Shown: positions 7,852 to 64,000 of the stretch, one piece after another
Position numbering within the stretch: position 1 is the stretch's first letter
How the letters are laid out: every line of letters starts with the position of its first letter
Assembly: GCA_902635225.1 (NCBI GenBank)
Contig: CACPNG010000001.1
Span: 36,050-100,049 of the forward strand
Origin: an uncultured Pelagibacteraceae bacterium
GTDB taxonomy: Bacteria > Pseudomonadota > Alphaproteobacteria > Pelagibacterales > Pelagibacteraceae
Direction of reading: 5' to 3'
DNA: 64,000 nt
Made by a program: the position numbers and the translations under genes
Notes under the pieces: generated by a model
What the model was told of the DNA's origin: nothing
Databases searched by the model: none
The model's input: the letters and a program-made list of their open reading frames with translations, nothing else

Positions 7852-7852
7852 A

Positions 7853-8112
7853 GGGGCGTTCTGTTGCCAGGTGCCCCAAGACCCCGTAACTTAATTAACT
7901 AAGTTAATTAAGCTGCAAGTGCAAATTTTTGATTTGCATTTGTAAATTAGCCCGTTACGTCGGAACCATCTCGTACGAAAGAATAGCCTTTAGACACCCG
8001 TCGATCCTAATTCACCCCCGTAAGTTGTAAATGGTGGAGGTGGTGGGTACTGCCCCCACGTCCGTGATGTTTATTACGAAATTCGTTTATCGTCATAGTT
8101 GGAAAACCAACA
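7853..8112 (-). ncRNA. ssrA: Circularly permuted two-piece tmRNA (acceptor piece ~8032-8112, coding piece ~7853-8019)
   Basis: Minus strand: T-arm GTGGG-GGCAGTA-CCCAC, CACCTCC-ACCA end at 8032, 12-nt intervening segment, then GGGGGTGAATTAGGATCGACGGG (tmRNA-like 5' end). GGGGGTG pairs with CACCTCC over 7 bp. Tag frame GCA AAT CAA AAA TTT GCA CTT GCA GCT TAA at 7937-7908. Terminal hairpin GGGGC...GCCCC. Confidence 0.93.
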
Positions 8113-8159
8113 CTATTAATATAAAACTCTTTTTAAGAGATTCAATAATTAATTCAAAA

Positions 8160-28776: not shown

Positions 28777-29181
28777 ATGAAAAAAATTTTAGGCTGTTTG
28801 CTTGGACTCACTTTGCTAACTGGTTGTGCAGAGTCTTTAGCTCTATTAGGACCTACCTCTACCGCAGTAACTGGTGGAAAAATTACACAATCAGCTTTTT
28901 CTACAGCAGTAAATTATGGAGTAAAAAAACAAACTGGAAAAAGTGCGATGGAACATGTAATGACATACGCTGAAGAAATGAATCCACAGAAAAAAAAGAA
29001 AGAGCCCTGCCTATCATTTGCTGAAAAAACTAACTCAGAAATTTGTGCTATTGTGAAAACACAATTAAAAATAACTAAATCGAAGATCTTAGAAATATCA
29101 AAAGAAAAATCTTTAAAAGATCTTACATCATCACTTCAGTCCAAAATAAATAAAAAATCTAAAATTAAGTACTTAGATTAA
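28777..29181 (+). CDS. Small lipoprotein, tandem paralog 1
   Basis: Lipobox LTGC at N-terminus; AESLALLGP...YGVKKQTGKSAMEHVMTYAEEMNP. Confidence 0.8.
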   Translation: MKKILGCLLGLTLLTGCAESLALLGPTSTAVTGGKITQSAFSTAVNYGVKKQTGKSAMEHVMTYAEEMNPQKKKKEPCLSFAEKTNSEICAIVKTQLKITKSKILEISKEKSLKDLTSSLQSKINKKSKIKYLD

Positions 29182-29290: not shown

Positions 29291-29725
29291 ATGAACCATT
29301 TAAAACAAATTTCAAACATGAAAAAAATATTAATTCTATTATCAACGGTTTTTTTACTTACTGGGTGCGCTGAGTCTTTAGCATTACTCGGTACTGGCAC
29401 ATCTAATGGAAAAATATTACAGTCTTCTATTAATTCAGCAGTAAGTTATGGAGTTAAAAAACAAACAGGAAAAACTCCATTGGAACACGTTATTGCTTAT
29501 GCAGAAGAAAAAAATCCTGAGAAAAAAAAAGAAACCTGTATTACTTCGTTTGAAATAACAAGATCTGAATTTTGCACGATTGTTAAAAAACAAATTAAGT
29601 CTAAAAGCACTAATATGATGGAAAAGACTACCGAAATTGCGAAAGAATATCCAAAAAAAATAATTAAAGAGATATCTAAGATTGAAAAGATAGCCAAAAA
29701 TTCAACTATTTATAATAGAAGGTAA
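29291..29725 (+). CDS. Small lipoprotein, tandem paralog 2
   Basis: Same architecture: LTGCAESLALLGTG...YGVKKQTGKTPLEHVIAYAEEKNP; start may be ATG 29320 (MKKILILLS). Confidence 0.8.
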   Translation: MNHLKQISNMKKILILLSTVFLLTGCAESLALLGTGTSNGKILQSSINSAVSYGVKKQTGKTPLEHVIAYAEEKNPEKKKETCITSFEITRSEFCTIVKKQIKSKSTNMMEKTTEIAKEYPKKIIKEISKIEKIAKNSTIYNRR

Positions 29726-36010: not shown

Positions 36011-36060
36011 GAGCCAATATTGTAATTGCGGTAAAGTTCAAAGGCAAATATAAACGTTAT

Positions 36061-46150: not shown

Positions 46151-47047
46151 ATGAGTTTTTCGATTTCAGATCATAACAACTCTAAGAGAGTTCGAGTAAT
46201 CAAGTTAAATGAAAGTGACTTAGATAGATTGATTTTTCCTTTTAAAAAACATTCAATATTGTCTTTAGAATACAAACCATTTTCGAGATTTAGCCTTGCC
46301 AAAAGCTTAGATGAAGTATTTCAAAATACACTTAGTAAAACTTTAAGTGAAATTCTTAATGATCGTAGCACAGGTACGGTGATCGTAGAGCCTGATATTA
46401 ATAATAAAAAATTTGATAAAGATTTTCTGGTCAAGCTTTCGACAGGTCTTGCCTATTTAGTTGGTAATCCGAATTTTGATTCTATGACAGGTAAATATTA
46501 TGCCAGGTTTTATGTCAAACACCAAGATAGTAGCGACTCTTATCTTAGAAAAGCCTATACGAATTTAGATCTTCATACTGATGGAACGTATGTAAAAGAG
46601 AAAACAGATTGGTTAATAATGACAAAAATGGAAGAGCAAAATGTTAGTGGTGGAGAAAGTGTAATTTTACATTTAGACGACTGGGAGCATTTAGAGGATC
46701 TTAGCAGTGATCCTGTAGGCCAAGAAGATTTTATTTGGGGATCACCAAAAAGTAAAAATGTAGATTATAAAGTTGAGCACCCAGTTTTTTCAAAGGATAA
46801 AAATGGTAAACCTATAATTTCCTACATTGATCAATTTCCAGAACCAAAAAATATGAAACAAGGTTTATTTTTACAAAAACTATCTGATGCCTTAGAGCAA
46901 AGTAAAAATAAAATAAGTTTCCCTTTACCCGTAGGATCTACAATTTTTTCAAATAATTATTTTTGGCTTCATGGAAGAAAAGCTTTCAAAGAGCATTCTG
47001 GGTTATCTAGAGAATTACTGAGGATTAGAGGAACTTTCTTTCATTAA
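46151..47047 (+). CDS. glaH: Glutarate 2-hydroxylase (CsiD/GlaH, Fe(II)/2-oxoglutarate dioxygenase)
   Basis: Collinear with remembered E. coli CsiD: GKYYARFYVKHQDSSDSYLRKAYTNLDLHTDGTYVKEKTD, GGESVILHLDDWEHLED, SKNVDYKVEHPVF, NNYFWLHGRKAF, RELLRIRG. Confidence 0.93.
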   Translation: MSFSISDHNNSKRVRVIKLNESDLDRLIFPFKKHSILSLEYKPFSRFSLAKSLDEVFQNTLSKTLSEILNDRSTGTVIVEPDINNKKFDKDFLVKLSTGLAYLVGNPNFDSMTGKYYARFYVKHQDSSDSYLRKAYTNLDLHTDGTYVKEKTDWLIMTKMEEQNVSGGESVILHLDDWEHLEDLSSDPVGQEDFIWGSPKSKNVDYKVEHPVFSKDKNGKPIISYIDQFPEPKNMKQGLFLQKLSDALEQSKNKISFPLPVGSTIFSNNYFWLHGRKAFKEHSGLSRELLRIRGTFFH

Positions 47048-47136
47048 TTGGAATCATTCTAAAAAATAGCTTATTGACTCTCTTTAATAATTTGATTTTA
47101 ATAATCTACTTTTATTAATTAACAGAGGGAAATAAT

Positions 47137-48117
47137 ATGTTTAATAATTTGAAAAAATTAATTAGCTTAGTTTTCGCAACTGTTCTTTTAACTTCAATCT
47201 CATCAACTAGTTTTGCAGTCGATAAATTACACTTCATTATCGGTGGTGGTGCTGGTGGTGGTTGGGATGGAACTGCTAGAGGAACTGGTGAGGCTTTAAC
47301 TAAAGCTGGTTTTCTAAAAAGTGCTTCGTATGAAAATATGTCAGGTGGTGGCGGAGGAAAAGCTCTATCTTACATAATTAATTCAAAGCCTGAGGGAACT
47401 GTACTAGTTCAATCAACACCTTTAGTTTTAAGATCAATCACTAGACACAAAGGGTATGTTAAAGGATCTGGGGTTTTATCTTACAAAGATGTTAAGCCAA
47501 TCGCTGGTGTAATCGGTGACTACGGTGCAATTGCAGTCGCTAAAAATTCACCATACAAAAACTTTAAAGACGTAGTGGATGCTTACAAAAAAAATCCTAA
47601 GTCAGTTAAAATGGCTGGCGGATCTGTAAGAGGAAGCATGGATCATCTTATTGGTGCACTTGCATTCCAAGAAGCTGGCGCAAACCCTAACGATGTAGTT
47701 TACGTGCCTTACGATGCTGGTGGTAAAGCTTTAGCTGGACTTTTATCAGGAGAAACTCAAATTCTTTCAACTGGTTTGGGAGAAGTAATGGGTGCTAGAG
47801 ACCAAGTAAGAATTATTGGTATTACAGCTCCTAAAAGAGTAGGTGATGCTCCAGAAGTCCCAACTTTGAAAGAACAAGGATACGATGTTCAGTTTGTTAA
47901 CTGGAGAGGTTTCTTTGCTCCTAAGAGTATGCCAAGTTCAGATGTTAAGAAGATCGAAAAAATGTTAGGTGATGTTCAAAAAACACCTGAATGGGAAGCA
48001 GTAAGAAAAAGAAATGCTTGGGTGAATATCTATAACCCAGGACGTAAGTTTGACAGTTTCTTAAAGGGTCAAACAAAAGAGATGACAGCGTTAATGAAAA
48101 AACTAGGCGTAATCTAG
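47137..48117 (+). CDS. tctC: Tripartite tricarboxylate transporter substrate-binding protein (TctC/Bug)
   Basis: LHFIIGGGAGGGWDGTARGTGEAL...FVNWRGFFAPKSMP; followed by TctB and TctA. Confidence 0.92.
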   Translation: MFNNLKKLISLVFATVLLTSISSTSFAVDKLHFIIGGGAGGGWDGTARGTGEALTKAGFLKSASYENMSGGGGGKALSYIINSKPEGTVLVQSTPLVLRSITRHKGYVKGSGVLSYKDVKPIAGVIGDYGAIAVAKNSPYKNFKDVVDAYKKNPKSVKMAGGSVRGSMDHLIGALAFQEAGANPNDVVYVPYDAGGKALAGLLSGETQILSTGLGEVMGARDQVRIIGITAPKRVGDAPEVPTLKEQGYDVQFVNWRGFFAPKSMPSSDVKKIEKMLGDVQKTPEWEAVRKRNAWVNIYNPGRKFDSFLKGQTKEMTALMKKLGVI

Positions 48118-48139
48118 TTGTTAACTTGAAGTAAGAGCA

Positions 48140-48610
48140 GTGAAAATTAGTCCATCAAAATTAATTTCACTGCTCTTCTTTATCTTTTCGGGTTATTATT
48201 TATATACAGCTTATCAAATACAGGTTTTTGCTTTTGATGAAAATGCACCATTTAATGCTAAGACATTTCCAATTTATTTAGGTTTTGCTGGATTAGTTTT
48301 TTCTGCACTTTACGTTATTTTACCAGAGACAAATCCTACTGATGTTGATTTAAGAGTTTTAGATTATAAAAAAACTATAGGGTTAGTTATTTTAATGATC
48401 TTATATGGCTTAACTATTTTGAGAGCCGGATATTTTCTTTCAACTTCAATTTTTTTAGTTGCCTCTTACATAATTTTAGGCGAACGAAAATGGATTTGGA
48501 TATTTACTCTATCTTTTCCTTTTGTAGCAATATTTATGTATCTTCTTCACGGACTACTAAATATTTATCTACGTGATCCTTTTTTAAAATACTTAGGAAT
48601 AATGGGATGA
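48140..48610 (+). CDS. tctB: Tripartite tricarboxylate transporter small subunit TctB
   Basis: 4-TM small protein between TctC and TctA; FNAKTFPIYLGFAGLVFSALYV. Confidence 0.88.
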   Translation: MKISPSKLISLLFFIFSGYYLYTAYQIQVFAFDENAPFNAKTFPIYLGFAGLVFSALYVILPETNPTDVDLRVLDYKKTIGLVILMILYGLTILRAGYFLSTSIFLVASYIILGERKWIWIFTLSFPFVAIFMYLLHGLLNIYLRDPFLKYLGIMG

Positions 48611-50106
48611 TTGAAGGAATACTAATAGGATTACAAACTGCTTTATCATTTAAAAATTTAATGATGGTAATGATTGGTTGTTTTGCTGGGACAATTATTG
48701 GAATGCTCCCAGGTTTAGGACCGATGACAGCTATAGCGTTAATGATACCGATTACTTATGGGTTTGATCCATCAACAGGATTAATTTTAATGGCTGGGGT
48801 TTATTACGGTGCAGTCTTTGGCGGATCAACTTCCTCTATTTTAATTAATGCACCTGGTGTTCCAGGAACTGTAGCAACTTCTTTCGATGGTTATCCAATG
48901 GCACAACAAGGTAAAGCTGGTAAAGCGTTAGCTATCGCTGCTTATAGTTCATTTGCAGGAGGAACTATTTCTGCAATTTTTTTACTTATTGCAGCACCTA
49001 GCTTATCTTTAATAAGTTTATCTTTTAGATCTCCAGATTATTTTGGTTTAATGATCCTTGGTTTGACCGCTGTAGCAGCATTTTCATCAAAAGGTAATTT
49101 TTTAAAAGCTATGATGATGGTAGTTCTAGGTTTAATGTTAGCTAGTGTTGGTCAAGATACTCTCTCAGATATTCCAAGATTTACCTTTAATAACATGAAT
49201 TTATCAGATGGAATTAGTTTCGTTTTAGTTGTTATGGCTACTTTTGCTATGACTGAGGCATTGACATTAATTTTTAAAGCTAAAGATCCAACTAAAGCAG
49301 CAAAACAAATTTCTCTTTCACAGTTGGGTTCTATTAAACTCGATAAAACTGAAACAAAAAAAATGGTCACTACAATTCCAAGATCATCCGTTTTAGGATT
49401 TATAGTTGGAGTTTTGCCAGGCGCAGGCGCAACAATTGCATCTTTCTTAGCTTATGGTATGGAAAGAAACTTTGTCAATGATGAGGAAAAGCAAAAATTT
49501 GGTAAAGGAAGTGTAAACGGAATTGCCGCTCCAGAAACTGCCAACAATGCAGCATGCTCTGGTTCATTTGTTCCTCTACTCACATTAGGAATACCTGGAA
49601 GCGGAACCACAGCTGTTATGCTTGGAGCTTTGTTAGGCTTTGGTATCCAGCCAGGTCCAAGATTATATCAAACAAATCCGGAGATTTTTTGGTCTGTGAT
49701 TATGTCTATGTACATAGGGATGGTTGTTCTTTTAATACTTAACCTTCCTTTAATTCCTTATATTGCTAGAGTTTTAGCAACACCTAGAACTTTTTTAATT
49801 CCTTTAATTTTATTCTTTTCACTGACTGGAGTATATTTAATGTCCTTTAACAATTTCGATATTTACTTAATGATTGGTATTGCAGTAATAGCAACAGTGC
49901 TTCGTTTATATAATTTTCCGATGCCACCTCTTATACTTGCATTTGTTCTTGGAGGTTTGATGGAAGAAAATTTAAGAAGATCTCTATTAATTAGTGACGG
50001 ATCATGGACGTTTTTATGGGATAGACCTTTAACACTTATAATAATGTTGACCATAATTCTCATAGTGGGATGGCAAATTTATAGGAGTTTTTTTGTTAAA
50101 AAGTAG
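48607..50106 (+). CDS. tctA: Tripartite tricarboxylate transporter large subunit TctA
   Basis: GTIIGMLPGLGPMTAIALMIPITYG; YYGAVFGGSTSSILINAPGVPGTVATSFDGYPMAQQGKAGKAL. Confidence 0.95.
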   Translation: MIEGILIGLQTALSFKNLMMVMIGCFAGTIIGMLPGLGPMTAIALMIPITYGFDPSTGLILMAGVYYGAVFGGSTSSILINAPGVPGTVATSFDGYPMAQQGKAGKALAIAAYSSFAGGTISAIFLLIAAPSLSLISLSFRSPDYFGLMILGLTAVAAFSSKGNFLKAMMMVVLGLMLASVGQDTLSDIPRFTFNNMNLSDGISFVLVVMATFAMTEALTLIFKAKDPTKAAKQISLSQLGSIKLDKTETKKMVTTIPRSSVLGFIVGVLPGAGATIASFLAYGMERNFVNDEEKQKFGKGSVNGIAAPETANNAACSGSFVPLLTLGIPGSGTTAVMLGALLGFGIQPGPRLYQTNPEIFWSVIMSMYIGMVVLLILNLPLIPYIARVLATPRTFLIPLILFFSLTGVYLMSFNNFDIYLMIGIAVIATVLRLYNFPMPPLILAFVLGGLMEENLRRSLLISDGSWTFLWDRPLTLIIMLTIILIVGWQIYRSFFVKK

Positions 50107-51389: not shown

Positions 51390-52163
51390 CTAGAATGTTA
51401 AAGCTCTATAGATCATTACAGCACCCCCAAGCACTACACAAACTTCAATAATGATTGTATGCATCTTAACTCCAAGTTTATCTGCTATTTTTTTTGCTGT
51501 ATAAGATCCAAAAATAGAAACTAAACCGATTAGAGATCCAACATATAAAGCATCTAAGTTTAATAAACCTAAATTCCAAAAAGATATTAATCTTATCGTA
51601 CAATTGATTAATGTTACAAAAGCATCAGTGCCAATTATCTGTCCACCTACCAAACCATTTGCAGCTAGAGCTGTAAGCAAAACAGAACCTGGACCTAATA
51701 TTACTCCGCTTATTGTTCCATAAAAAATTGCCATTATCCCTAAACCAAACCACCCAATGTTTAAATTTATTTTTTTAAATACTCTTCTTAAAATAACAAT
51801 AAACGCTAAACCGAAGCCCAAACAAAAATATAATGTTTTTTCTGATACCGCTGCATAGAAATTTGTTCCTGCTATTAAAAAAGGGGTAGAAATGATTGCA
51901 AAGTAAAAACCTTTTTTCCAAAAAATATTTTTTCTGTAATAATACATTCTTGATAAGTTAGAAAATAAAACAAATACAGACATTAAAGGTACTAGAAGTT
52001 TTACAGGTATAAAAGGAGAGACTAATAAACCTAAAGTCATTCCCCCACCATAGCCGGAAATACCTGATACAACTGAAGCAAAAAAAGCAGTTAAGATTAA
52101 AATTGAGAGTTCTAAAAAACCAAGACTTGCAAATAGTGCCGCTATATCAAAATTTGACTCCAT
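51390..52163 (-). CDS. TauE/SafE-family permease
   Basis: FFASVVSGISGYGGGMTLGLLVSPFIPVKLLVPLMSVFVLFSNLSR. Confidence 0.88.
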   Translation of the reverse strand: MESNFDIAALFASLGFLELSILILTAFFASVVSGISGYGGGMTLGLLVSPFIPVKLLVPLMSVFVLFSNLSRMYYYRKNIFWKKGFYFAIISTPFLIAGTNFYAAVSEKTLYFCLGFGLAFIVILRRVFKKINLNIGWFGLGIMAIFYGTISGVILGPGSVLLTALAANGLVGGQIIGTDAFVTLINCTIRLISFWNLGLLNLDALYVGSLIGLVSIFGSYTAKKIADKLGVKMHTIIIEVCVVLGGAVMIYRALTF

Positions 52164-53516
52164 TTACTCTTTTAAGTTCAAATTACAGAGTTTGACTAAT
52201 TCATCTACTGTGAAATTTTTATGGAGAATTAGATCAATTAAATCATCAGTTTGACTTGTTTTGAATACTTCCAATAGTCGTTTTGATTTAGCCGTAATAT
52301 CCTTTTCATCCATTGGGTTATCTGGAGTGCCCCTAACTGACTTAGCGTGGTAAAATAATTCCTTATTATTACTAAATTTTATTCTAATTTTTGATTGCCT
52401 TTCAGGCCTTGCAATCGCTAATTCATCGCTAGAAACCGCTTTAATCTTTTTTCTTAAACTCACAACCTCAGAATCATCAAATAATTTTTCATCATGAGCC
52501 TCTACATAACCCATTTTCTTTTTTATTAAATGCACTGCTATTAAATGCTGAGCACTTATTGATAAAATTTTTCTGTCATTTACAATGTGATACCTATCTG
52601 ACGGTATATCCACAACTAGTTCAGTTATGTCTTTATGATCAAATTTATTATTTTTTAATAAATATTCTACAGCATCCATCATTGATTGAATTGGGGATCC
52701 TACTGACCATTTTTTAAGAGAAGCAGTATCAATTTTAAAATTCTCTCCAAGTTTTTCTACTATTAGCTTTGGGTTTGGATTATGGGCAAATCCCTCATGA
52801 AAACCTCGTTCACCTAATAGAGGATCTGTTACTGATGTAAAATTTTCTTTAGCTAGGAGAGCAGAATAAATTGCATTTCTAGTTGTCATACCTGAAAAAA
52901 CGAATGCTTTCTCAATATGATCCGGATCTCTATTCCAACATGCTAAACCCGAAGTTTGTTGAACGGTGTATGACAAAAGATAATTACATTGTTCGTGTGT
53001 CAGTTTAAGTAAAGCACCGGCAGAAGCAGCACAGCCAAATATTGGCCCGATACTATGAGTTGCAAAAATCGATGTCTTAGGAGTTTTATATCCCAAGCTT
53101 GTTGTAATTCTAACACCTATGTCATAACCAAGAGCGATTGCTTTAATGATTTCTTCACTACCTAATTTCTCTCTTTCAGCTACTGCTAAGGTAGCAGGGA
53201 CGATAGCACAACCTGGGTGAAATCTACCTTCTGTTGTTGAGTCATCAGTCTCATTAGCATGCGCAGCCATTCCATTAGAGAAACCAGCATTAATTGCCGA
53301 AACTTTTATATCGCTTCCGAGCAATGTGGACTCTTTTACACCACCTTGAGTTTTTGAAAATTGAAAAGCTTTTTTTCCAGGCGGCAGCAGTCTACCAGTA
53401 AGTATAGATACTAATGTATCTAATAGATGAAACCGAGTTTTAAATTCTGTTTTTTTCGGCAAATCATTACTTAAAGCTTTAGAAATATATTTAGTTAATT
53501 CTTGTTGTACGTCCAT
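52164..53516 (-). CDS. MmgE/PrpD-family protein (copy 1)
   Basis: NAGFSNGMAAHANETDDSTTEGRFHPGCAIVPATLAVAE; SIGPIFGCAASAGALLKL. Confidence 0.9.
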   Translation of the reverse strand: MDVQQELTKYISKALSNDLPKKTEFKTRFHLLDTLVSILTGRLLPPGKKAFQFSKTQGGVKESTLLGSDIKVSAINAGFSNGMAAHANETDDSTTEGRFHPGCAIVPATLAVAEREKLGSEEIIKAIALGYDIGVRITTSLGYKTPKTSIFATHSIGPIFGCAASAGALLKLTHEQCNYLLSYTVQQTSGLACWNRDPDHIEKAFVFSGMTTRNAIYSALLAKENFTSVTDPLLGERGFHEGFAHNPNPKLIVEKLGENFKIDTASLKKWSVGSPIQSMMDAVEYLLKNNKFDHKDITELVVDIPSDRYHIVNDRKILSISAQHLIAVHLIKKKMGYVEAHDEKLFDDSEVVSLRKKIKAVSSDELAIARPERQSKIRIKFSNNKELFYHAKSVRGTPDNPMDEKDITAKSKRLLEVFKTSQTDDLIDLILHKNFTVDELVKLCNLNLKE

Positions 53517-55027
53517 TAATAAATCCCTTTAATTTTATTATTATCTAAATTCAAAAAACCCTCTTTACAATTTACATTAAGCCTTTTTACCTCATCTTGG
53601 TTTAAATTGCTTAAATTATCAATCAAATTTAAAAATCTTTCTTCTTCTTTTTCTTCGACAATATTTTTAAACAATTTTTTCATCTTATTAATATAGTTTT
53701 CCCTAACGAAAGGTGTTTTTCCTTTAGGATGTGCATTTGCATAATCTAATTGGTCAGTAATTTTATCATTATTATTTAATATAATTTCAACTTTTGCCCC
53801 TTGAGCTTTCTTTAAAGGATCACTCACATCATAATATTTCTTATTCCATTCATCACTTTCGAACGTTTCAATTTTATTCCACAAATCAATAGTTTCTTTC
53901 CTCTTTTTTCTATTTTCTGCGTAACTTTTTTCATGGTGCCATTCACCGTCTTCAAGCGCTACTGCAAATATATACATTGCAGAATGATCGAGTGTTTCTC
54001 TTGAGGCCTCAGGACTATATTTTTCTTTGTCATTACTTCCGCTTCCCATAACTATGTGAGTGTACTCTTTCGTAAATATATTTATTTTTCTTATTTCCTT
54101 TGTGTCTTTAATCTTTTTTCTCATATTAAACGCTAAATCAATTAACGAATTTCCGTGATATCCAGCTGAATGTTCTTTTGTAAAAGTATTTAAAATTCCC
54201 TCTCTTGGCTCATTGGTCTCAGGAAGTTGAATTTTAATCTCTTCGCTAATTTTTTTTAATAAAATTTGAACAATTCCATAATCACCTTCCCAAACAGGAC
54301 TTGGAGAAGTATCTCCTCTGATCGCTCTATCTATTGCATCAATTGCATTTTTTCCAACTAATCCAGGGGCGTATGCTTTCCAACTTGACAACTTACCTTT
54401 TCTTCCTTGTCTTGTAAAAACTGAGGTATGAGCACTCCACTGTATTGCTTGGTAAATCGTTTCAGTATCAAGTTTTAATAGTTTACCTAGCCCACTTGTA
54501 ATAGCTGGACCTAAATGACCAACGTGATCTATTCGGTTAGGATTAAGGGCTATAGACAACGATAACCTTAGTTGTGTCTCGTAACTAGTGGCTATTGCTT
54601 TTACTAATTCTTCTCCATTACAATTTTTTTGCTGAGCTACAGCTAATATTGTGGGAATACAATCTCCAGGATGACAAGTCTCTTTGGCCATTATATTGTC
54701 GTGAAAATCTAATTCTCTTACAGCTACAGCATTAGCCCATGCAGCCCACTGACAATCATATTTTTTACTTTGATCTAAACCAAAAAGAGTTGATCCATAA
54801 TTATTTTCAAACTTCATTGCTTGAGCTCTAGCAATTTTAACTGCTTTATTATTCAAGGCAGCGATTGCAACCCCTGCGTTATCTATAATTCTATTACCAA
54901 CCATGTCTGAAATTTCTTTAGTTAAATTCCAATCCTCTGCGGCCATATTCGCAATAAGCCATGCAAGTTGATTTTGTTTTTCTAATTTTGTACCAGGTTT
55001 TTGAAGTTTAATTTTGAATGATTTCAT
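53516..55027 (-). CDS. prpD: PrpD-like 2-methylcitrate dehydratase (copy 2)
   Basis: NAVAVRELDFHDNIMAKETCHPGDCIPTILAVAQQ; NRIDHVGHLGPAITSGLGKLL. Likely start MKSFKIKL at 55027. Confidence 0.9.
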   Translation of the reverse strand: MKSFKIKLQKPGTKLEKQNQLAWLIANMAAEDWNLTKEISDMVGNRIIDNAGVAIAALNNKAVKIARAQAMKFENNYGSTLFGLDQSKKYDCQWAAWANAVAVRELDFHDNIMAKETCHPGDCIPTILAVAQQKNCNGEELVKAIATSYETQLRLSLSIALNPNRIDHVGHLGPAITSGLGKLLKLDTETIYQAIQWSAHTSVFTRQGRKGKLSSWKAYAPGLVGKNAIDAIDRAIRGDTSPSPVWEGDYGIVQILLKKISEEIKIQLPETNEPREGILNTFTKEHSAGYHGNSLIDLAFNMRKKIKDTKEIRKINIFTKEYTHIVMGSGSNDKEKYSPEASRETLDHSAMYIFAVALEDGEWHHEKSYAENRKKRKETIDLWNKIETFESDEWNKKYYDVSDPLKKAQGAKVEIILNNNDKITDQLDYANAHPKGKTPFVRENYINKMKKLFKNIVEEKEEERFLNLIDNLSNLNQDEVKRLNVNCKEGFLNLDNNKIKGIY

Positions 55028-55124
55028 AATATGAAATGACATTTTACATATTGAACTTAAGTCTAATATCGTGTTAACTTTTGTCAATTATATATAACAA
55101 CTAACAAACAAAATGGGAGAAGAT

Positions 55125-56132
55125 ATGATAAAATTAACTAGAAAGTTTTTTGCTTTATCTGCATTCTTATCTGCACTTGTTTTTGCTTCATTTGCTATAA
55201 CTTCAAATGCTGAGGCATCTTCTCATAAGAAAGGAACTTTTGCTACTGAGGCTTGTAATCCAATCCAAGTAGTAATTCACGCTTCTTATGGTGGTGGAAC
55301 TGATACGACTGCACGAATGATGTCTATTAGATCTAGAAGAACTCTTGCTGCTGATATGCAAATTGTTGGTAAGAGAGGTGGATCAGGAGCTAAAGCTCAA
55401 AACTACACTTTAACTAGACCAAAAGATGGTTGTACAATTATGGCTCTAACAGAGTCTCACTTGTATACTATGGCTAGAGGAAAATCTGATATGAAGATCG
55501 ATGATCTTGTTGGAGTTGCTAGAGCTATGGAAGAACCAACTTTTATTGTTGTTAACGCTAAAAATAAAGAGTTAAGCACAATTAAAAAGTTTATCAAAAG
55601 ATCTCAAAAGAAACCTATCGTAACTGCTATCGCATCTATTGGAGGAACAGAGCACATTGGAATGTATAACTATTCTAAAACTGCTGGTGTGCCTTTCAAA
55701 GCGGTATCATTTGGATCAGGAGCGCAAAGCTTACAAGCATTGGCTTCTGGTAAAGTAGAGGCTTCATTACTTAACCCTTCTGAAGCAGCGGCTTTAATTG
55801 AAGATAAAAAAATTAAAGCAATTCTATTGTTACATGACAAAAAAATGGCTGATTATCCAAAAGTACCAACTTCGTACGAAATGGGTCATGAAGTTAAAGT
55901 TGTGACTACAAGAGGTTACGCTGTACTTAAAGGAACTCCACCAGAAAGAATAAAAGAACTTTCTGATGGTATGGTAAAAGCTATGCAACATGAAACTTTT
56001 GGAAATTATCTTAAAGGTGCATCTCTAGACCCTAAAACTAGCCCAGCTGGTACAGATGTTTGGGATAAGCAACTTAAAGAAAATTACAAAAAAGCTGCAG
56101 AAGCTCTAAAAGGTTTAGGTTTAACTAATTAG
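55125..56132 (+). CDS. tctC: Second tripartite tricarboxylate transporter TctC-like protein
   Basis: Signal peptide (MIKLTRKFFALSAFLSALVFASFAITSNAEA; track start 55113), IQVVIHASYGGGTDTTARMMSIRSRR; followed by TctB and TctA. Confidence 0.9.
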   Translation: MIKLTRKFFALSAFLSALVFASFAITSNAEASSHKKGTFATEACNPIQVVIHASYGGGTDTTARMMSIRSRRTLAADMQIVGKRGGSGAKAQNYTLTRPKDGCTIMALTESHLYTMARGKSDMKIDDLVGVARAMEEPTFIVVNAKNKELSTIKKFIKRSQKKPIVTAIASIGGTEHIGMYNYSKTAGVPFKAVSFGSGAQSLQALASGKVEASLLNPSEAAALIEDKKIKAILLLHDKKMADYPKVPTSYEMGHEVKVVTTRGYAVLKGTPPERIKELSDGMVKAMQHETFGNYLKGASLDPKTSPAGTDVWDKQLKENYKKAAEALKGLGLTN

Positions 56133-56135
56133 TTA

Positions 56136-56666
56136 ATGTCTAACCAAAAAAAAATACATGATTTCGCGCCCAGAACTTTGGGCGCGGGATTCGTTCATAA
56201 AAAAGATTTAGTTCTCGCGATAATTTTAGTCGCGTTCGGAGCCTTTATGTATTACGAGGCTAGTAAGTTTCCTGAAGCACCAGCAATATTAGGAGATACA
56301 CTTAACGCTGATGTATTTCCAAAAATGTTGATTACAATAATGTTTTTGCTGGTAGCAATTATACCTTTCGAATTTAGATTAACCCCTGACAAAGTAGCGA
56401 AAATTGACAAAGACCGTGATGATAAAACTTTAACAATTACTTGGTTAACGATTTTACTATTATTAACAATAGTATCTTTCGCTGAATTTTTAGGAGCTGT
56501 AGTAACAATGGTTATTACTTGCCTAGCACTACCGCTACTGTGGGGTGAAAGGAATTATATTGCAGTAATTATTTATTCAATTTTATTCCCTGGATTTGTT
56601 TACTTATTATTTAATAAACTCTTAGGTTTATATTTCAACCCAGGTATTTTGGAGGCATTTAAATAG
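56136..56666 (+). CDS. tctB: TctB-like protein
   Basis: 4-TM small subunit between TctC and TctA. Confidence 0.87.
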   Translation: MSNQKKIHDFAPRTLGAGFVHKKDLVLAIILVAFGAFMYYEASKFPEAPAILGDTLNADVFPKMLITIMFLLVAIIPFEFRLTPDKVAKIDKDRDDKTLTITWLTILLLLTIVSFAEFLGAVVTMVITCLALPLLWGERNYIAVIIYSILFPGFVYLLFNKLLGLYFNPGILEAFK

Positions 56667-56670
56667 TATT

Positions 56671-58155
56671 ATGGAAGATGTAATAAGAGGTTTTCAATTA
56701 TTAATGGAGGTACAGAACCTAGCCTTAATTTTTGGCGGAGTTTTGATTGGAGTATTAGTTGGTGCTTTACCAGGACTGAGTTCTCCAATGGCTATAGCTT
56801 TACTAATGCCATTTACAATTAGTCTAGATCCGGTTGCATCAATTTCTATGATGGCTGCTCTATATTGCGCAGGAACCTTTGGTGGTTCCATCACAGCAAT
56901 ATTAATTAATGCACCAGGAGCACCACCAGCGGTAGCTACTGCTTTAGATGGATACATGATGGCAAAAAAAGGTGAACCAGGGAGAGCTCTTGGTTTAGCG
57001 GCGATCTGTAGTGTCTTAGGTGGAATTTTTGCAATTGTAATATTTTTGTTTGCTACTCCACTATTAGCAGAGATAGCTCTTAAATTTGGGCCAGTTGAAT
57101 ATTTTGGTCTAACATTATTTGCTTTATCTATGTTAGCCGCAATGAGTGGAAAATCATCTATAAGAAATTTAATAGCTGGAGCTATGGGAGTTTTAGTGTC
57201 AACAATAGGTGTACACTTAGCAACTGGTGTAGAAAGATATGAATTTGGTGTTCCTGAATTGACAGAAGGAATTAAGTTTGTCCCAGTTCTAATAGGACTT
57301 TTTGCGATGTCCGAACTACTCAATCAATCAAAAACACTTAATGCTGCAGTGGAGAGAATGTCAGCGAAAGCTTTAAAACTTCCAACAATTGCAGAACTAA
57401 AAGAATTAAAAGGTACAATTTTAAGATCATCCGGATTAGGAACATTCATAGGTATTTTACCTGCTGAAGGAGCGACTGTAGCTGCAATGATGGGTTACAA
57501 TGAAGCGAAAAGATTTTCTAAAACACCAGAAAAATTTGGTACGGGATGTGCCGAAGGTATCGCTGGGCCAGAAGCTGCCAATAATGCTGCAGCTGGTGGA
57601 GCGATGGTTCCAACCCTAGCTTTAGGAATACCTGGTAGTGGAACTACAGCATTAATTTTGGCTGCATTAGTAATGCACGGTTTTCGACCTGGACCTTATC
57701 TGATTTCAGAAACTCCACACTTAGTTTATGCAATATTTGGCGCAATGTTGTTTGCTAATTTTGCCTTTTTAGGAATTGGTTTAGTGGGAGCTAAGTTCTT
57801 TTCATATGTAACGTTTATTCCAAAAAGATTTTTGTGGCCATCAGTGTTTATTTTCTCTTTAATCGGATCATATGCATATAGCTCAGCAATATTTGATGTT
57901 TGGGTAATGCTAATCTCAGGTATCATTGGTTATTTTGCATTGAGAAACGGATTTTCTCCAGCTCCATTCGTAATGGGACTGATATTAGGAAAAATGGTAG
58001 AGGAAACATTCACTCAATCAATGGTGATTTATGAGAGTAATTTTTTCAATTTCTTTGAAAGTGGAGTATTTATCTTCTTCATAATTCTTACGTGTATCAG
58101 TCTTACAACACCTTTCTGGGGTACAATCCGCAAAAAATTAGCTGCAAAAAGTTGA
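56671..58155 (+). CDS. tctA: TctA-like protein
   Basis: GVLVGALPGLSSPMAIALLMPFTI; CAGTFGGSITAILINAPGAPPAVATALDGYMMAKKGEPGRALG. Confidence 0.95.
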   Translation: MEDVIRGFQLLMEVQNLALIFGGVLIGVLVGALPGLSSPMAIALLMPFTISLDPVASISMMAALYCAGTFGGSITAILINAPGAPPAVATALDGYMMAKKGEPGRALGLAAICSVLGGIFAIVIFLFATPLLAEIALKFGPVEYFGLTLFALSMLAAMSGKSSIRNLIAGAMGVLVSTIGVHLATGVERYEFGVPELTEGIKFVPVLIGLFAMSELLNQSKTLNAAVERMSAKALKLPTIAELKELKGTILRSSGLGTFIGILPAEGATVAAMMGYNEAKRFSKTPEKFGTGCAEGIAGPEAANNAAAGGAMVPTLALGIPGSGTTALILAALVMHGFRPGPYLISETPHLVYAIFGAMLFANFAFLGIGLVGAKFFSYVTFIPKRFLWPSVFIFSLIGSYAYSSAIFDVWVMLISGIIGYFALRNGFSPAPFVMGLILGKMVEETFTQSMVIYESNFFNFFESGVFIFFIILTCISLTTPFWGTIRKKLAAKS

Positions 58156-58916
58156 GCAAGGATTTCAATAAAAACAAAGTTGCAGTTCTTACTGGCGCAG
58201 CAAAGAAAATTGGAAGATCAACAGCAATAAAATTAGCAGAGCAAGGTTTTAATATATTAATTCATACTGGTGGCAAAAGCATCGAGGAAGCTAAAGATAC
58301 AATAAAATTACTTGAAAAGTTTAAAATTAAATCAAACTACGTTACAGGGGACCTAGCAAATTTAGAAACAATTAATATCATTAAAGATGCGGCTTTAAAA
58401 CTAGGAACGCCATCTGTTCTTGTAAATAATGCCGGATTGAGAATCCACGAGCATTTTGAAAAGATAGATTATAAAGATTGGAAAAAAGTGATGACTGTGA
58501 ATGTCGATGCTTCATTTTTATGTGCTCAAGCTTTAATTAATTATATGGTAAAACAAAAATGGGGACGGGTAATTAATATTGGTGGCTTATCAGCACATAT
58601 AGGGGCAAAAGAAAGAGCTCACGTTGTAACTTCAAAAGCAGCTTTAGTTGGTTTAACAAAAGCTATTAGTATGGAATTTATAGAGAAAGGTGTAACTTGT
58701 AATTGCGTTGTTCCTGGATTTATTGAAGATTTTGATAGCAAAGAAACTAAACTAAGTGGTCACTGGTTGCGCCACCCTCAAACACCTAGTTTGGTACAAA
58801 ATAGATTTGGAAATCCAGACGAAGTAGCGGAAGTCATTGCAAATCTTTGTAAGAAAGAAGCTGATTATATAAATGGACAGACTCTTCATGTGAATGGTGG
58901 TAGTTATACTCCATGA
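58152..58916 (+). CDS. SDR-family oxidoreductase
   Basis: VAVLTGAAKKIGRSTAIKLAEQG, VLVNNAG, INGQTLHVNGG. Likely TTG start at 58152 overlapping the tctA stop (TTGA); track start 58092 is inside tctA. Confidence 0.88.
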   Translation: MSKDFNKNKVAVLTGAAKKIGRSTAIKLAEQGFNILIHTGGKSIEEAKDTIKLLEKFKIKSNYVTGDLANLETINIIKDAALKLGTPSVLVNNAGLRIHEHFEKIDYKDWKKVMTVNVDASFLCAQALINYMVKQKWGRVINIGGLSAHIGAKERAHVVTSKAALVGLTKAISMEFIEKGVTCNCVVPGFIEDFDSKETKLSGHWLRHPQTPSLVQNRFGNPDEVAEVIANLCKKEADYINGQTLHVNGGSYTP

Positions 58917-60262
58917 CAATTTCTGAAGATTTTTCTAAATGGGCAAAAAATTTATCGACTAAAGATATTTCTGATAAGTCAAAGAAGACTTTAAATTATC
59001 TAATTAAAGATATTTGTGGAATTATCCTTTCTGCTAGAAATGAAAATTATGTTCAAAGTCTTGTCAAAGCTTATAAAGGATCAGGAAAATTTATTTCATT
59101 AGGACATGGGAGTGACTTTGATATTTCCTCCTCTGCTATAATTGCGGGTACTGCTGCACATGGTGAAGACTTCGACGATACATTCGAGGGAAATCCTATG
59201 CATGTTGGAGCTTGTATGATTCCGGCTATATTAGCTGCAGCGCAAAGATTTAATTTAAATGGTGATCAGATTTTAAAAAGTTTAGCTGTAGGTACAGAGT
59301 TAATGTGTAGATTAGCCTTGGTTGCGCCAACTGCCATGCATAAACAAGGCTTTCATCCTACTGCTGTTTGCGGTACTTTTGGTGTAGCAGCTGGCCTTTC
59401 ATCTGTTTTAAATTTAACTGAAAAGCAGATGGTGTCTTCATTAGGAATAGCCGGTAGTTTTACTTCAGGAATTATCGAATATCTTGCAGAAGGTTCTTGG
59501 ACTAAAAGAATTCATCCTGGATGGTCTGCCAACTCAGGGATAAATTCTGTTTTAATAGCTCAAACAGATTTTTATGGACCTAGGACTGTTTTCGAGGGTG
59601 ATCACGGTTTCTTTAGCGCTTTTGCAATTAAAGAAGTAAAAAGAGATTATTCTAAATTAACTGACTCTCTAGGTTCGAGGTGGGAAATAGAAAATTTGGC
59701 TTTTAAACCATTTGCTTGTGGAACTATGGCTCAGCCATTTGTAGATTGTGCGATTAAATTAGGAGATAAAATAAAAGACTTTAAAAAGATTAAATCTATA
59801 AAGGCAAAAGTTGGAGAGGGTACAGTACATCGGTTATGGGAGCCTTCTAAAGAAAAAAAGAAACCTTCTACACCATACTCTGCAAAATTTTCTGTCCCGT
59901 ACTGTGTTGCTGTAGGCTTTATAAGAAAAGACGCAGGATTAAAAGAATTTGATGAGAAAAGCATTAATGATAAAGAAATTTTAGACTTAGCTAACAAAGT
60001 TGAGTATGAAGTTGACCCAAATGATGAATATCCAAAAAATTATACAGGAACTTTGACTTGTATTACAGAAGAGGGAAAATTCACTGAACATCAACCTTGT
60101 TTTAGAGGAGGTAGAAAACAACCCTTGACAGAAAATGATATTGATAAAAAATTTAATGCAAATCTCAATTACTCTAAAATTAATGAAACCGAAAAAAATA
60201 ATGTTAAAGATTTTATTAAAAATATTTTTACGAAGCCAAATTTTTCAAAAATTTTAACTTAG
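58913..60262 (+). CDS. MmgE/PrpD-family protein (copy 3)
   Basis: IIAGTAAHGEDFDDTFEGNPMHVGACMIPAILAAAQRF; HKQGFHPTAVCGTFGVAAGLSSVL. Confidence 0.9.
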   Translation: MTISEDFSKWAKNLSTKDISDKSKKTLNYLIKDICGIILSARNENYVQSLVKAYKGSGKFISLGHGSDFDISSSAIIAGTAAHGEDFDDTFEGNPMHVGACMIPAILAAAQRFNLNGDQILKSLAVGTELMCRLALVAPTAMHKQGFHPTAVCGTFGVAAGLSSVLNLTEKQMVSSLGIAGSFTSGIIEYLAEGSWTKRIHPGWSANSGINSVLIAQTDFYGPRTVFEGDHGFFSAFAIKEVKRDYSKLTDSLGSRWEIENLAFKPFACGTMAQPFVDCAIKLGDKIKDFKKIKSIKAKVGEGTVHRLWEPSKEKKKPSTPYSAKFSVPYCVAVGFIRKDAGLKEFDEKSINDKEILDLANKVEYEVDPNDEYPKNYTGTLTCITEEGKFTEHQPCFRGGRKQPLTENDIDKKFNANLNYSKINETEKNNVKDFIKNIFTKPNFSKILT

Positions 60263-60266
60263 TAGA

Positions 60267-61025
60267 ATGGAATATTCTATTTTATTACCTCAAACGATTT
60301 CAATTAACAGTGCAATATTTTTAATTTTTTTTAATTTTTTAACATGTTTTATATCAACTGCACTTAGTCTAGGTGGAGGAATGTTGATGCTTGTGGGATT
60401 ATCATTTATTTTACCAACGACAGCTTTAATACCGGTACACGGGCTTGTACAGCTTGGTTCTAATTTTGGAAGAATTTTTGTTTCAATTAAAGATTTAGAT
60501 AAAAAGATTATTTTGCCTTTTGTCATTGGAACAATAGTGGGGTCTCTTTTTGGAGCAAATATAGTTGATTATCTATCTCCTGGAGTAGGACAAGTTGGGG
60601 TAGGTTTATTTATATTATATTCTTTATTCGGTACTTTTCCGCCACTAGGGAGAAAATATATTTTAGTTGGGGGTATCGCTACTACAATAATGTCGATGTT
60701 ATTTGGTGCATCAGGACCAATAGTTTCTACTCTGATAAGAAATATGGGTTTTAACCCTACAAAGCATGTGACAATTCATGGAGCATTCATGACTTCACAA
60801 CACCTATTTAAATCAATTGGTTTCTTTTTTATTGGTTTTGCTTTTCAAGAATATATTCTACTCGTAGCGACAATGATTTTTGTAGGTTTTTTTGGTACTT
60901 ATTTTGGAAAAAAAGTATTAATTTCAAAAGGTAAACACTACTTTCAAAAAGTTTTAACAATCATTTTACTATTAGGTGGAATAAGAATTATTTACTTGGG
61001 TCTACAAAATTTAAATTTATTATAG
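60267..61025 (+). CDS. TauE/SafE-family permease (second copy)
   Basis: STALSLGGGMLMLVGLSFILPTTALIPVHGLVQLGSNFGR; ILLLGGIRIIYLG. Confidence 0.87.
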   Translation: MEYSILLPQTISINSAIFLIFFNFLTCFISTALSLGGGMLMLVGLSFILPTTALIPVHGLVQLGSNFGRIFVSIKDLDKKIILPFVIGTIVGSLFGANIVDYLSPGVGQVGVGLFILYSLFGTFPPLGRKYILVGGIATTIMSMLFGASGPIVSTLIRNMGFNPTKHVTIHGAFMTSQHLFKSIGFFFIGFAFQEYILLVATMIFVGFFGTYFGKKVLISKGKHYFQKVLTIILLLGGIRIIYLGLQNLNLL

Positions 61026-61026
61026 T

Positions 61027-62160
61027 TTAAACTAAAACTTCACCTCTCATTAAAGGTCTAAAAGTTCTAAAAAAAATTGCAGATTTTGCAAAAGGCTTGC
61101 CATTTTTATTTTCGATTATTGCACCTGCTGTCATTATTCCTGATGGATTTCCTGCACGTAACTCTAAAGGATCTGAATTTTTTCTTTTTACTTTGTTTGG
61201 AATAGTTCCATCAATAGCTGCAGCAACCCCAATATTTACACCTGCAGTTCCCATTATAGCTTTATGAGTTTTTTCCATTGAAAACATTCTAGTTGTAATA
61301 TCTTGATCATTGGAACTAATTTTTGTTTTATCTAAACTTACATAATCTTTCGGGGAAGTTACAATTCCTATTCGAGGTGTATTCATAGGAGCTTCATTTT
61401 CAGAATTTGAAAGGCCTATGATGTGTGCAGATTTTCTTCTAATTTTTTGAATTAAATTCATTTTGTCAGTTTTAGCGTCAAGTTCATCTGGTGTTTCTGT
61501 TCCTTTAAGACCTATATCTTCTGCAAGTAAATACACTAATGGGGTAGCTGCATCGACAATGCTTACTTTTATTTTTCCATAATCTTTTATTTCAATTTCA
61601 TCTATTACATTGCCAGTTGGAAGAAGTTTACCTGTTCCTGATCCTCCTGGTTCAATATAGTCTAATCTAACTTTAGATCCTGCGCCATGAACGCCAGCAA
61701 TAGAGTAATCTCCTTCTATTAAAGGCTTTCCATCTTTAACTTGAAAAGTTGAATGTATAATCTTATCAGTATTGACTTGATAAATTCTAACCAAATTCTC
61801 CCCCTCTTTTGGTTTTATTATGCCCTCTTGAATTGCATACGGACCAACTGCGCCAGATAAATTACCACAATTGTTGTTCCACTCCGCAATAGGTTTATCT
61901 ATAGCAATTTGAATAAAATTATAATCTATGTCAGCATCATCTCTCTCTGAAGGGCTTATTATTACGCATTTTGATACTGAAGATACTCCACCTCCCATCC
62001 CATTAAGCTGTCTTTGATTTGTATCTGGACTACCTATAACTTTTAAAAATAATTCATTTAATTTATTTTGGTCGGAAGTGGGCAGGTCTTTTTTCTGAAA
62101 AAAAACACCTTTGCTAGTTCCACCTCTATAGTAAGTAGCTTTAATCCATTTTTGGCTCAT
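61027..62160 (-). CDS. prpF: PrpF-family 2-methylaconitate isomerase
   Basis: KATYYRGGTSKGVFFQKKDLP; GGVSSVSKCVIISPS; GNLSGAVGPYAI; EPGGSGTGKLLPTGN. Confidence 0.92.
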   Translation of the reverse strand: MSQKWIKATYYRGGTSKGVFFQKKDLPTSDQNKLNELFLKVIGSPDTNQRQLNGMGGGVSSVSKCVIISPSERDDADIDYNFIQIAIDKPIAEWNNNCGNLSGAVGPYAIQEGIIKPKEGENLVRIYQVNTDKIIHSTFQVKDGKPLIEGDYSIAGVHGAGSKVRLDYIEPGGSGTGKLLPTGNVIDEIEIKDYGKIKVSIVDAATPLVYLLAEDIGLKGTETPDELDAKTDKMNLIQKIRRKSAHIIGLSNSENEAPMNTPRIGIVTSPKDYVSLDKTKISSNDQDITTRMFSMEKTHKAIMGTAGVNIGVAAAIDGTIPNKVKRKNSDPLELRAGNPSGIMTAGAIIENKNGKPFAKSAIFFRTFRPLMRGEVLV

Positions 62161-62165
62161 TAAAT

Positions 62166-64000
62166 TTAAGCTTCCTTATAAGCAGTTGGTAAAATACCGC
62201 CATTTTTCCAAAAGACAACTTCTTCAGGAACATCTAATCTAACATTTAGTTTTATATCAATTACATCTCCTGTTTCTTTATGAATTTTCATTTGCACTTT
62301 TTTTTGATTATCATTTATTTTATCGAGACCTAAAATACTAAATTGATCATTACTTTGTATTCCTATTTCTTCAATTCCTTGCCCTTTTTCAAATTCTAAT
62401 GGCAATAATCCCATACCAATTAAATTAGATCTATGGATTCTCTCAAAACTTTTAGCCACAATGGCTCTAACTCCAATTAATAATGGACCTTTTGCAGCTA
62501 CATCTCTTGATGAACCGCAGCCATAATTTTCTCCAGCTATAACTATTATCTCTTTATTCTCTTTTTTATACTCCATTGCAACTTCATAAAGTCTCTTCAC
62601 TTTATTTTCTGGATATTTAACAGTTAAACTTCCTTCTTGATTAGGTGTCATCAAATTTCGGAGCCTTAAACTTGCAAAAGTTGATCTTGCAACAATCTCA
62701 TGATTAGCTCTTCTTGTTAAATAATTATTAAAATCTTTTGAGTCAATCCCAAGCGCTGTTAAATAATCCCATGCAGCAGTACCCTTGGTGATAACACTTG
62801 ATGGTGAAATATGATCTGTTGTAACTGAGTCTCCTAAAAGTACAATTGGTCTAGCCAATTTTATATCTTTAATTTCATTATTTTCAGCCTTCTTCATATA
62901 CGGTGGCTTTTTAATGTAAGTGCTATCAGGCCAATCATAATTATTTGAGTTTGAAACATTTAAATTTTCCCATAATTCTCCACCATCATTAACTTCTTTA
63001 TACTTTTCTTTAAAAGTTTCAGATTTATAAAATTGATCAATAACTTTATTCACTTCATTATTTGACGGCCAAACATTTTTAAAATAAATATCATTTCCTT
63101 TAGTATCTTTTCCTAAAGCATCTTTAGATAAATCTTTTTTTACTGAGCCAAGTATTGAAAACAAAACTACTAACGCAGGAGATGCTAAGTAAGATGCTCT
63201 TATATTTGGGTGTATCCTGCCTTGAAAATTTCTATTTCCAGATAAAACTGCAACAGAAAAAACTTTTTCTTTTTCAATTGTGTTTGCTAAGTTCTCTTCT
63301 AATGGACCTGAACTTCCGTTACAAGTAGTACAACCAAATCCAACGACATTAAAACCAAGTTCATCTAAATATTTTTGTAAACCAGATTTTTTTAAGATTT
63401 CAGCTGTAACTTTACTACCGGGTGCAAAAGAGGTTTTTATTTTATTTTTCTTCTTAAAACCAAGGTTAATTAATTTTTTTGCAATTAAACCCGCTGCTAT
63501 AACATTTTTTGGATTTGCAGTATTTGTGCAGCTTGTGATAGCAGCTATCATAATATCTGCATCTTTAATTTTATATCCTTGAGTGGGCACTTCGAACTCG
63601 TCATCCCTAAGATCTTTGTTATAAAGCATTTTAGAATGTGAATTAATTTCTTTTGAGAATTTATCTAAATCAATTTTATCTTCAGGATTTCTTGGTCCTG
63701 ATACACATGGCTCTATCGTGGACAAGTCTAAATCTAGAACCCGATTGTACTCTGGAGCAGTATTAGATTTTCTCCATAAATTTTGGCACTTCGAATATTC
63801 TTCAACAATTTTTATTTCCTCTTCTGTTCTTCCTGTCATACTCAAATAGTTTAAAGTTGCTTTATCTACAGGAAACAAAACTGCTGTTGCACCATATTCT
63901 GGTGCCATATTTGAAATAGTTGCTCTATCACCAACAGTTAAATTTTCAACTCCTTCACCACAAAATTCAATAAAACTACCCACTACTTTGCTGTCTCTTA
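62166..64000 (-). CDS. Aconitase-family hydratase (AcnA/AcnD type), N-terminal part outside window
   Basis: SCTNTANPKNVIAAGLIAKKL; GFGCTTCNGSSGPL; SPSSVITKGTAAWDYL; ENYGCGSSRDVAAKGP; frame stays open to 64000. Confidence 0.93.
   Translation of the reverse strand, partial: RDSKVVGSFIEFCGEGVENLTVGDRATISNMAPEYGATAVLFPVDKATLNYLSMTGRTEEEIKIVEEYSKCQNLWRKSNTAPEYNRVLDLDLSTIEPCVSGPRNPEDKIDLDKFSKEINSHSKMLYNKDLRDDEFEVPTQGYKIKDADIMIAAITSCTNTANPKNVIAAGLIAKKLINLGFKKKNKIKTSFAPGSKVTAEILKKSGLQKYLDELGFNVVGFGCTTCNGSSGPLEENLANTIEKEKVFSVAVLSGNRNFQGRIHPNIRASYLASPALVVLFSILGSVKKDLSKDALGKDTKGNDIYFKNVWPSNNEVNKVIDQFYKSETFKEKYKEVNDGGELWENLNVSNSNNYDWPDSTYIKKPPYMKKAENNEIKDIKLARPIVLLGDSVTTDHISPSSVITKGTAAWDYLTALGIDSKDFNNYLTRRANHEIVARSTFASLRLRNLMTPNQEGSLTVKYPENKVKRLYEVAMEYKKENKEIIVIAGENYGCGSSRDVAAKGPLLIGVRAIVAKSFERIHRSNLIGMGLLPLEFEKGQGIEEIGIQSNDQFSILGLDKINDNQKKVQMKIHKETGDVIDIKLNVRLDVPEEVVFWKNGGILPTAYKEA

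Follow-up and report, generated by a model that had tools for sequence, protein, structure and literature searches.

What does a marine bacterium do with three different proteins of the MmgE/PrpD superfamily, a complete tripartite tricarboxylate transporter (TTT) and two TauE/SafE-family permeases, all encoded side by side? The question is raised by positions 51390-61025 of a 64,000-nucleotide stretch of DNA (positions 36,050 to 100,049 of contig CACPNG010000001.1, assembly GCA_902635225.1; hereafter the window). The host belongs to SAR11; its closest named genomes are single-cell genomes of Pelagibacteraceae, and HIMB114 carries a more distant version of the locus. An earlier reading of the same DNA (the original prediction) had proposed a dedicated pathway that imports and converts a carboxylate and exports an anionic product. 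We have found that the locus belongs to a conserved SAR11 island of about 19 genes, which is carried by only some SAR11 bacteria, and we consider it about an even chance that the region makes up the left-hand portion of a catabolic island scavenging a tricarboxylate of the aconitate, tricarballylate or citrate class. A dedicated carboxylate pathway is still the most economical reading, within a frame that had been drawn too small: PrpF, an aconitase, a TcuA-like protein, Ldh2, a fourth MmgE/PrpD protein and a lyase belong to it as well.

A conserved island in SAR11

The locus consists of two divergent, tightly packed operons, TauE-PrpD-PrpD on the minus strand and TctC-TctB-TctA-SDR-PrpD-TauE on the plus strand (SDR, short-chain dehydrogenase/reductase). 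All nine genes lie where they had first been placed and are intact open reading frames (ORFs) with Pfam matches well above cut-off. A single scan of a genome collection yielded 18 SAR11 loci with PrpD-A, the left-arm protein next to the intergenic region, at 77-99% identity. PrpD-B adjoins PrpD-A, and TctC is divergent from PrpD-A, in all 18 of them; the SDR and PrpD-C genes stand in the same order in each of the 14 loci that reach far enough. Because order and content are conserved to this degree, the two-arm locus is not a chance arrangement, and the proposal that both arms form one unit has passed a test of their co-occurrence.

Contig C1 stops with the last base of the window, so that the two-arm locus sits at a contig end. 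One base past the right-hand TauE gene, on the minus strand, begins a gene for a PrpF-family aconitate/methylaconitate isomerase (61027-62160; PF04303, 354 bits; TIGR02334, 327 bits, below the cut-off of 440). Its Lys64 and Cys98 match, in motif, spacing and with the same offset, Lys73 and Cys107 of Shewanella PrpF, an enzyme that isomerises aconitates and for which these residues are essential (PMC5690661). The nearest solved structures are 3g7k and 2pvz. Next comes an aconitase paralogue, Acn2 (62166-64000, minus strand), truncated by the contig end; an N-terminal piece of it was found at the start of contig C18 (G000:C18:3-536). It scores 803 bits with the AcnA-subfamily model NF006757 (cut-off 686) and 575 bits with the AcnD model TIGR02333; the corresponding values for the HIMB114 orthologue are 1141 bits and 811 of the required 1419.85. 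By score, Acn2 is accordingly classed as an AcnA-type aconitase, not AcnD. PrpF and the aconitase are present in 16 of the 17 loci with sufficient sequence, the exception being AG-915-L04 (locus L049), which lacks both.

Acn2 is intact in AG-916-E17, where one contiguous block encodes the aconitase, Ldh2, a TcuA-like FAD dehydrogenase, PrpD-D, an IclR regulator, a PrpB-like lyase of the PEPmut type, an AbrB-type permease, an alpha/beta hydrolase and a rhodanese-like protein. The wider set (PrpF, Acn2, Ldh2, TcuA-like protein, PrpD-D, IclR, lyase and AbrB) is largely common to HIMB114 and others. The TcuA-like protein exceeds one equivalog cut-off (NF006130, 549 bits against 369) and fails a second TcuA model (TIGR02485, 238 bits against 372.55).

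All three transporter subunits exceed their Pfam cut-offs and are encoded in a single operon on the plus strand, which makes the TTT system complete: the periplasmic solute-binding protein TctC (55113-56132, alternative start 55125; PF03401, 72 bits, cut-off 27), the small membrane subunit TctB (56136-56666; PF07331, 55 bits, cut-off 29.1) and the large membrane subunit TctA (56671-58155; PF01970, 492 bits). The SDR oxidoreductase (58152-58916, plus strand; PF13561, 142 bits) reaches the cut-off of none of the NCBIfam models listed. Its start is most likely the TTG at 58152, giving a four-base overlap with the TctA stop, and not the mechanically chosen GTG at 58092; the HIMB114 orthologue likewise begins with TTG. 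With this start, gaps within the arms do not exceed 4 bases, and 85 bp separate PrpD-A from TctC (55028-55112). This divergent region is presumed to be a shared promoter region; a consensus promoter scan of it found sites no more numerous than in shuffled sequences, and the PrpD-A frame stays open up to a TTG at 55087.

Two further TTT neighbourhoods were observed. In the window, a second complete TTT system (47137-50106) comes directly after a gene for a CsiD/GlaH glutarate dioxygenase (432 bits against a cut-off of 333; both within 46151-50106), so that a link to glutarate uptake is possible. In HIMB114 (L174, 10025-15412), another TTT, with a TctC-like and a 668-aa TctA-like protein, lies beside a second PrpF-family gene of 32% identity, directly before the housekeeping acnA.

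The permeases TauE 1 (51390-52163, minus strand; PF01925, 73 bits, cut-off 32.6) and TauE 2 (60267-61025, plus strand; PF01925, 61 bits) close the left and right arm in the window, as originally described. Compared with the window clade, the TauE genes of the HIMB114-type clade have swapped arms (L044-L061): an 89% identical orthologue of TauE 1 is located there on the other arm. TauE 2 was not found in loci L055 and L056. The family is present in nearly all covered islands, yet an exporter at the end of each arm is not a fixed feature, and the export of an anionic product by TauE is left unsupported.

Neighbourhoods in other Alphaproteobacteria, read by tblastn, place similar modules outside SAR11. 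Relatives of PrpD-C with 42-51% identity are mostly encoded beside TctA/TctC, an SDR or both, often together with other MmgE/PrpD genes. Orthologues of PrpD-B (E <= 1e-80) occur in just three other genomes of a 289-genome sample of the class, each with one near a PrpD-C relative. Clusters on Pacificitalea manganoxidans pDY25-A, Paracoccus versutus pTAV3 and a Phyllobacterium zundukense plasmid share TctCBA, the SDR, a PrpD-C relative and further MmgE/PrpD genes with the island. On the Pacificitalea plasmid, all four PrpD types have a homologue (44% for PrpD-A, 40% for -B, 43% for -C and 58% for -D), accompanied by two TTT systems and an SDR; the pTAV3 cluster adds tcuA. They differ in their variable extras (PdxA, tartrate dehydrogenase, IPMDH-type protein, chromate transporter), and PrpF and aconitase, unlike in the SAR11 island, were not seen in the stretches read. 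The module of TTT, SDR and MmgE/PrpD genes, as judged from these neighbourhoods, extends beyond SAR11 and is uncharacterised as far as the searched literature shows. Our search found no description of the island, of SAR11 in connection with tricarballylate, or of TTT with MmgE apart from an itaconate cluster and a brief mention in Paracoccus yeei; a physiological study of SAR11 IIIa included citrate among the carbon sources tested for LSUCC0261 (PMC10030771).

MmgE/PrpD proteins and the missing resident prpD

The three PrpD proteins of the window are distinct, as the original prediction held, and differ in kind; intact relatives encode a fourth, PrpD-D. PrpD-A (53516-55027, minus strand) resembles 2-methylcitrate dehydratases, reaching 609 of 950 bits with NF042438 and 94 of 575 and 80 of 458 bits with other equivalog models. 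PrpD-B and -C score far lower, and none of the three reaches a 2-methylcitrate dehydratase cut-off. The solved structures nearest to PrpD-A are the 2-methylcitrate dehydratases 6s62 and 1szq, and it shares the Arg, Asp, Lys, Lys catalytic columns with Escherichia coli PrpD and 21 canonical proteins. At one column, Gly stands in 20/20 island-type PrpD-A proteins, whereas 21/21 canonical proteins have Glu. The best tree joins PrpD-A with two TTT-linked homologues found elsewhere in the Alphaproteobacteria and separates this group from the 34 other PrpDs, which include every prpBC- or acnA-linked one sampled (support 100/99-100). Because the PrpD-A branch is long and the approximately unbiased (AU) test did not reject PrpD-A and the resident SAR11 PrpD as one clade (p 0.17), the separate island lineage suggested by this tree and one residue is no more than probable.

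PrpD-B (52164-53516, minus strand; PF03972, 171 bits; PF19305, 70 bits) and PrpD-C (58913-60262, plus strand; PF03972, 186 bits), the latter of a TTT/SDR-linked subfamily, appear to fall on the iminodisuccinate (IDS) epimerase/cis-aconitate decarboxylase side of the family. The nearest solved structure to the divergent PrpD-B is IDS epimerase (E 2e-15); PrpD-B lacks the epimerase Tyr and aligns poorly at two columns. PrpD-C keeps the common residue set, but has His at the epimerase Tyr column. PrpD-D retains the epimerase set (His/Asp/Lys) and the catalytic Tyr column in 6/6 SAR11 proteins and seems epimerase-like. At the position of His277 of cis-aconitate decarboxylase (mouse numbering), every PrpD-A, -B, -C and -D examined has Gly. 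On the basis of nearest structures and residue columns, we reject the idea that PrpD-B, -C and -D are ordinary 2-methylcitrate dehydratases. AlphaFold models of PrpD-B and PrpD-C, built from shallow SAR11 alignments, had a mean pLDDT of 43 and 53 and were not used. Most of the superfamily is uncharacterised; its members include a methylsuccinate isomerase, and a common enolate chemistry on a 1,4-dicarboxylate core has been proposed (PMC12290011).

The absence of prpB and prpC from the window, together with the three distinct PrpD proteins, had been taken as a mismatch with the textbook 2-methylcitrate cycle. Searches of the genome itself confirmed the absence, which says little because the window stops at a contig end, and overturned the conclusion drawn from it: prpB and prpC are adjacent on contig C11, both over curated cut-offs and unlinked to the island. 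With both genes at hand, a 2-methylcitrate cycle is probably present. A separate prpBC locus occurs in other island genomes too, prpC being found at 61-99% identity in 15 of the 17 searched for it. The locus is nevertheless no textbook prpBCD operon, since prpB and prpC are not adjacent to any island PrpD. Nearby prpBC and PrpDs confined to 2-methylcitrate had been named as findings that would speak against a separate pathway; the genes exist, though not nearby, and PrpD-B and -C look unlike 2-methylcitrate dehydratases.

What island genomes mostly lack is the resident prpD. The ordinary same-genus relatives that we examined carry a canonical prpD, about 50% identical to PrpD-A, directly after the housekeeping acnA. 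Of the 57 genomes of this genus that lack the island, 37 were found to have the gene, against none of the four island carriers (chance about 0.02, many of the genomes being incomplete). Among 17 distinct island genomes, the window's own counted, only AG-915-L04 and the metagenome-assembled genome PW7.metabat2.87 have it; the complete HIMB114 genome does not. In AG-895-E15, prpD is missing from its place behind acnA, and the next gene follows after 3 bases. PrpF was detected in three of 101 relatives, all three island carriers, and the sole covered island without PrpF and aconitase belongs to AG-915-L04, which keeps its canonical prpD. Since acnD plus prpF are able to replace prpD (PMC5690661), PrpF and the aconitase paralogue could stand in for it. 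The pattern fits a takeover of 2-methylcitrate dehydration by island enzymes, and we propose this as the reason why prpD was mostly lost while prpB and prpC were kept.

Candidate substrates and competing explanations

Aconitases hydrate aconitates, TcuA forms cis-aconitate by oxidising tricarballylate, and acids of the isocitrate type are split by PrpB-like lyases. Together with PrpF and the MmgE/PrpD chemistry, these enzymes lead us to favour import of an acid of the aconitate/tricarballylate class. TctABC would take up the acid, and the TcuA-like FAD enzyme, Ldh2 and the SDR would alter its oxidation state. The MmgE/PrpD enzymes would epimerise (PrpD-D), dehydrate (PrpD-A) or otherwise rearrange it (PrpD-B and -C) via enolate chemistry on the 1,4-dicarboxylate core. 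PrpF would set the double-bond isomer of an aconitate-type intermediate, and the aconitase paralogue would hydrate that intermediate to an isocitrate-type acid, to be passed to the tricarboxylic acid (TCA) cycle or cleaved by the PrpB-like lyase. As a by-product, 2-methylcitrate dehydration would have passed to PrpF with Acn2, or to PrpD-A.

Several points weigh against this scheme. No gene fixes the substrate, and TTT transporters accept many acids. PrpF, PrpD-A, Ldh2 and the lyase are all below equivalog cut-offs. TcuB, the electron-transfer partner of TcuA in Salmonella, was not seen in the island cluster, though no genome-wide search for it was made. The TauD-like dioxygenase of HIMB114-type islands has no role in it. 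Acn2, because it scores as AcnA and not AcnD, may be no 2-methylcitrate dehydratase; the AU test left PrpD-A and the resident PrpD as a permissible single clade; and the genome of the window is a 717 kb draft of 39 contigs, 58% complete.

The missing prpD, the retained prpBC, the dehydratase-like catalytic columns of PrpD-A and the known replacement of prpD by acnD plus prpF would also suit a rearranged propionate pathway, in which PrpD-A and/or PrpF-Acn2 dehydrate the 2-methylcitrate that PrpC supplies from its distant locus, PrpB carries out the cleavage, and the remaining organic-acid genes are loosely attached. We regard this as unlikely: it leaves the TTT, SDR, PrpD-B, -C and -D, TcuA-like protein and Ldh2 unexplained, although they form a conserved unit that partly recurs in other Alphaproteobacteria; the Gly/Glu difference separates PrpD-A from the canonical enzymes; and two island genomes keep the canonical prpD. 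The AcnD/PrpF systems share with the island an aconitase-family gene beside prpF, prpB and prpC in the genome and a mostly absent usual prpD, but here the aconitase scores as AcnA, prpBC are unlinked and the pair is set in a TTT/MmgE island with its own PrpD-A. It is quite unlikely that the substrate is a branched dicarboxylate of four or five carbons (methylsuccinate, citramalate, itaconate or dimethylmalate class) which the MmgE/PrpD enzymes isomerise and the PrpB-like lyase splits. Methylsuccinate isomerase is itself an MmgE/PrpD protein, encoded in an itaconate/methylsuccinate degradation cluster (PMC12290011), PrpF is equally close to 3-methylitaconate isomerase and to PrpF proper, the lyase has petal death protein as its nearest match and resembles 2,3-dimethylmalate lyase too, and PrpD-D has the epimerase Tyr column. 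However, the CoA transferase, CoA hydratase, CoA lyase (citramalyl-CoA lyase) and acyl-CoA dehydrogenase of such degradation were not recognised in the island, and the TcuA-like enzyme and AcnA-type aconitase indicate tricarboxylates.

We find it very unlikely that the substrate is a sulfonated or sulfur-bearing carboxylate from which a TauD-like dioxygenase or other enzyme frees sulfite for export by TauE, or by YeiH in some islands. The near-universal TauE family would suit this, as would the TauD-family gene that most HIMB114-type islands add (L050, 14659-15510) and that has a 53% identical counterpart in the homologous cluster of a genome outside SAR11 (G227; L158, at about 17606). Some of these islands, HIMB114 included, also encode a YeiH-family permease; outside HIMB114 the TauD and YeiH calls rest on ORF position and length. 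The best NCBIfam match of Ldh2 is L-sulfolactate dehydrogenase, far below its cut-off, and the Paracoccus versutus cluster has a phosphosulfolactate-synthase-like gene. Yet the islands of the window clade have no TauD-like gene, the TauD-like protein scores 146 bits against a taurine dioxygenase cut-off of 313, no desulfonation lyase of a known kind was recognised, and other substrates exist for TauE-family proteins.

A parallel to the tricarboxylate reading is the use of tricarballylate by Salmonella (TcuABC), shared through the TcuA-like FAD dehydrogenase, although the island has many more enzymes. Salmonella takes up tricarballylate by the TcuC permease, in place of the TTT of the island. 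Judged by its gene content, the island is a conserved version of known organic-acid catabolic clusters that seems not to have been described before, and two of its MmgE/PrpD subfamilies (PrpD-B and -C) have no assigned reaction. In its boldest form, which we advance tentatively and at less than even confidence, the proposal is of an undescribed catabolic pathway for a marine tri- or dicarboxylate, possibly sulfonated, with four MmgE/PrpD enzymes and at least two new reactions (PrpD-B and -C), which spread in Alphaproteobacteria and whose arrival in part of SAR11 displaced the resident 2-methylcitrate dehydratase.

Further features of the window and biological meaning

Elsewhere in the window, adjacent paralogous genes for small lipoprotein-like proteins (28777-29181 and 29291-29725), both with LTGCAESLALLG, look like a tandem duplication, and a tmRNA gene was located at 7817-8127 on the minus strand (tag peptide ANQKFALAA, with an ARAGORN asterisk flag).

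SAR11 bacteria, with their small genomes, rank among the most abundant marine heterotrophs. That some but not all of them carry a conserved island of about 19 genes therefore suggests a real carbon source by which ecotypes are set apart. The lack of prpD in island genomes offers a testable case of the enzymes of one pathway assuming a step of another, and cultured HIMB114, with its own version of the island, opens the way to growth and expression tests. The island also bears on the MmgE/PrpD superfamily, because the transporter and enzymes encoded around PrpD-B and PrpD-C limit the substrates to be considered for these two proteins.

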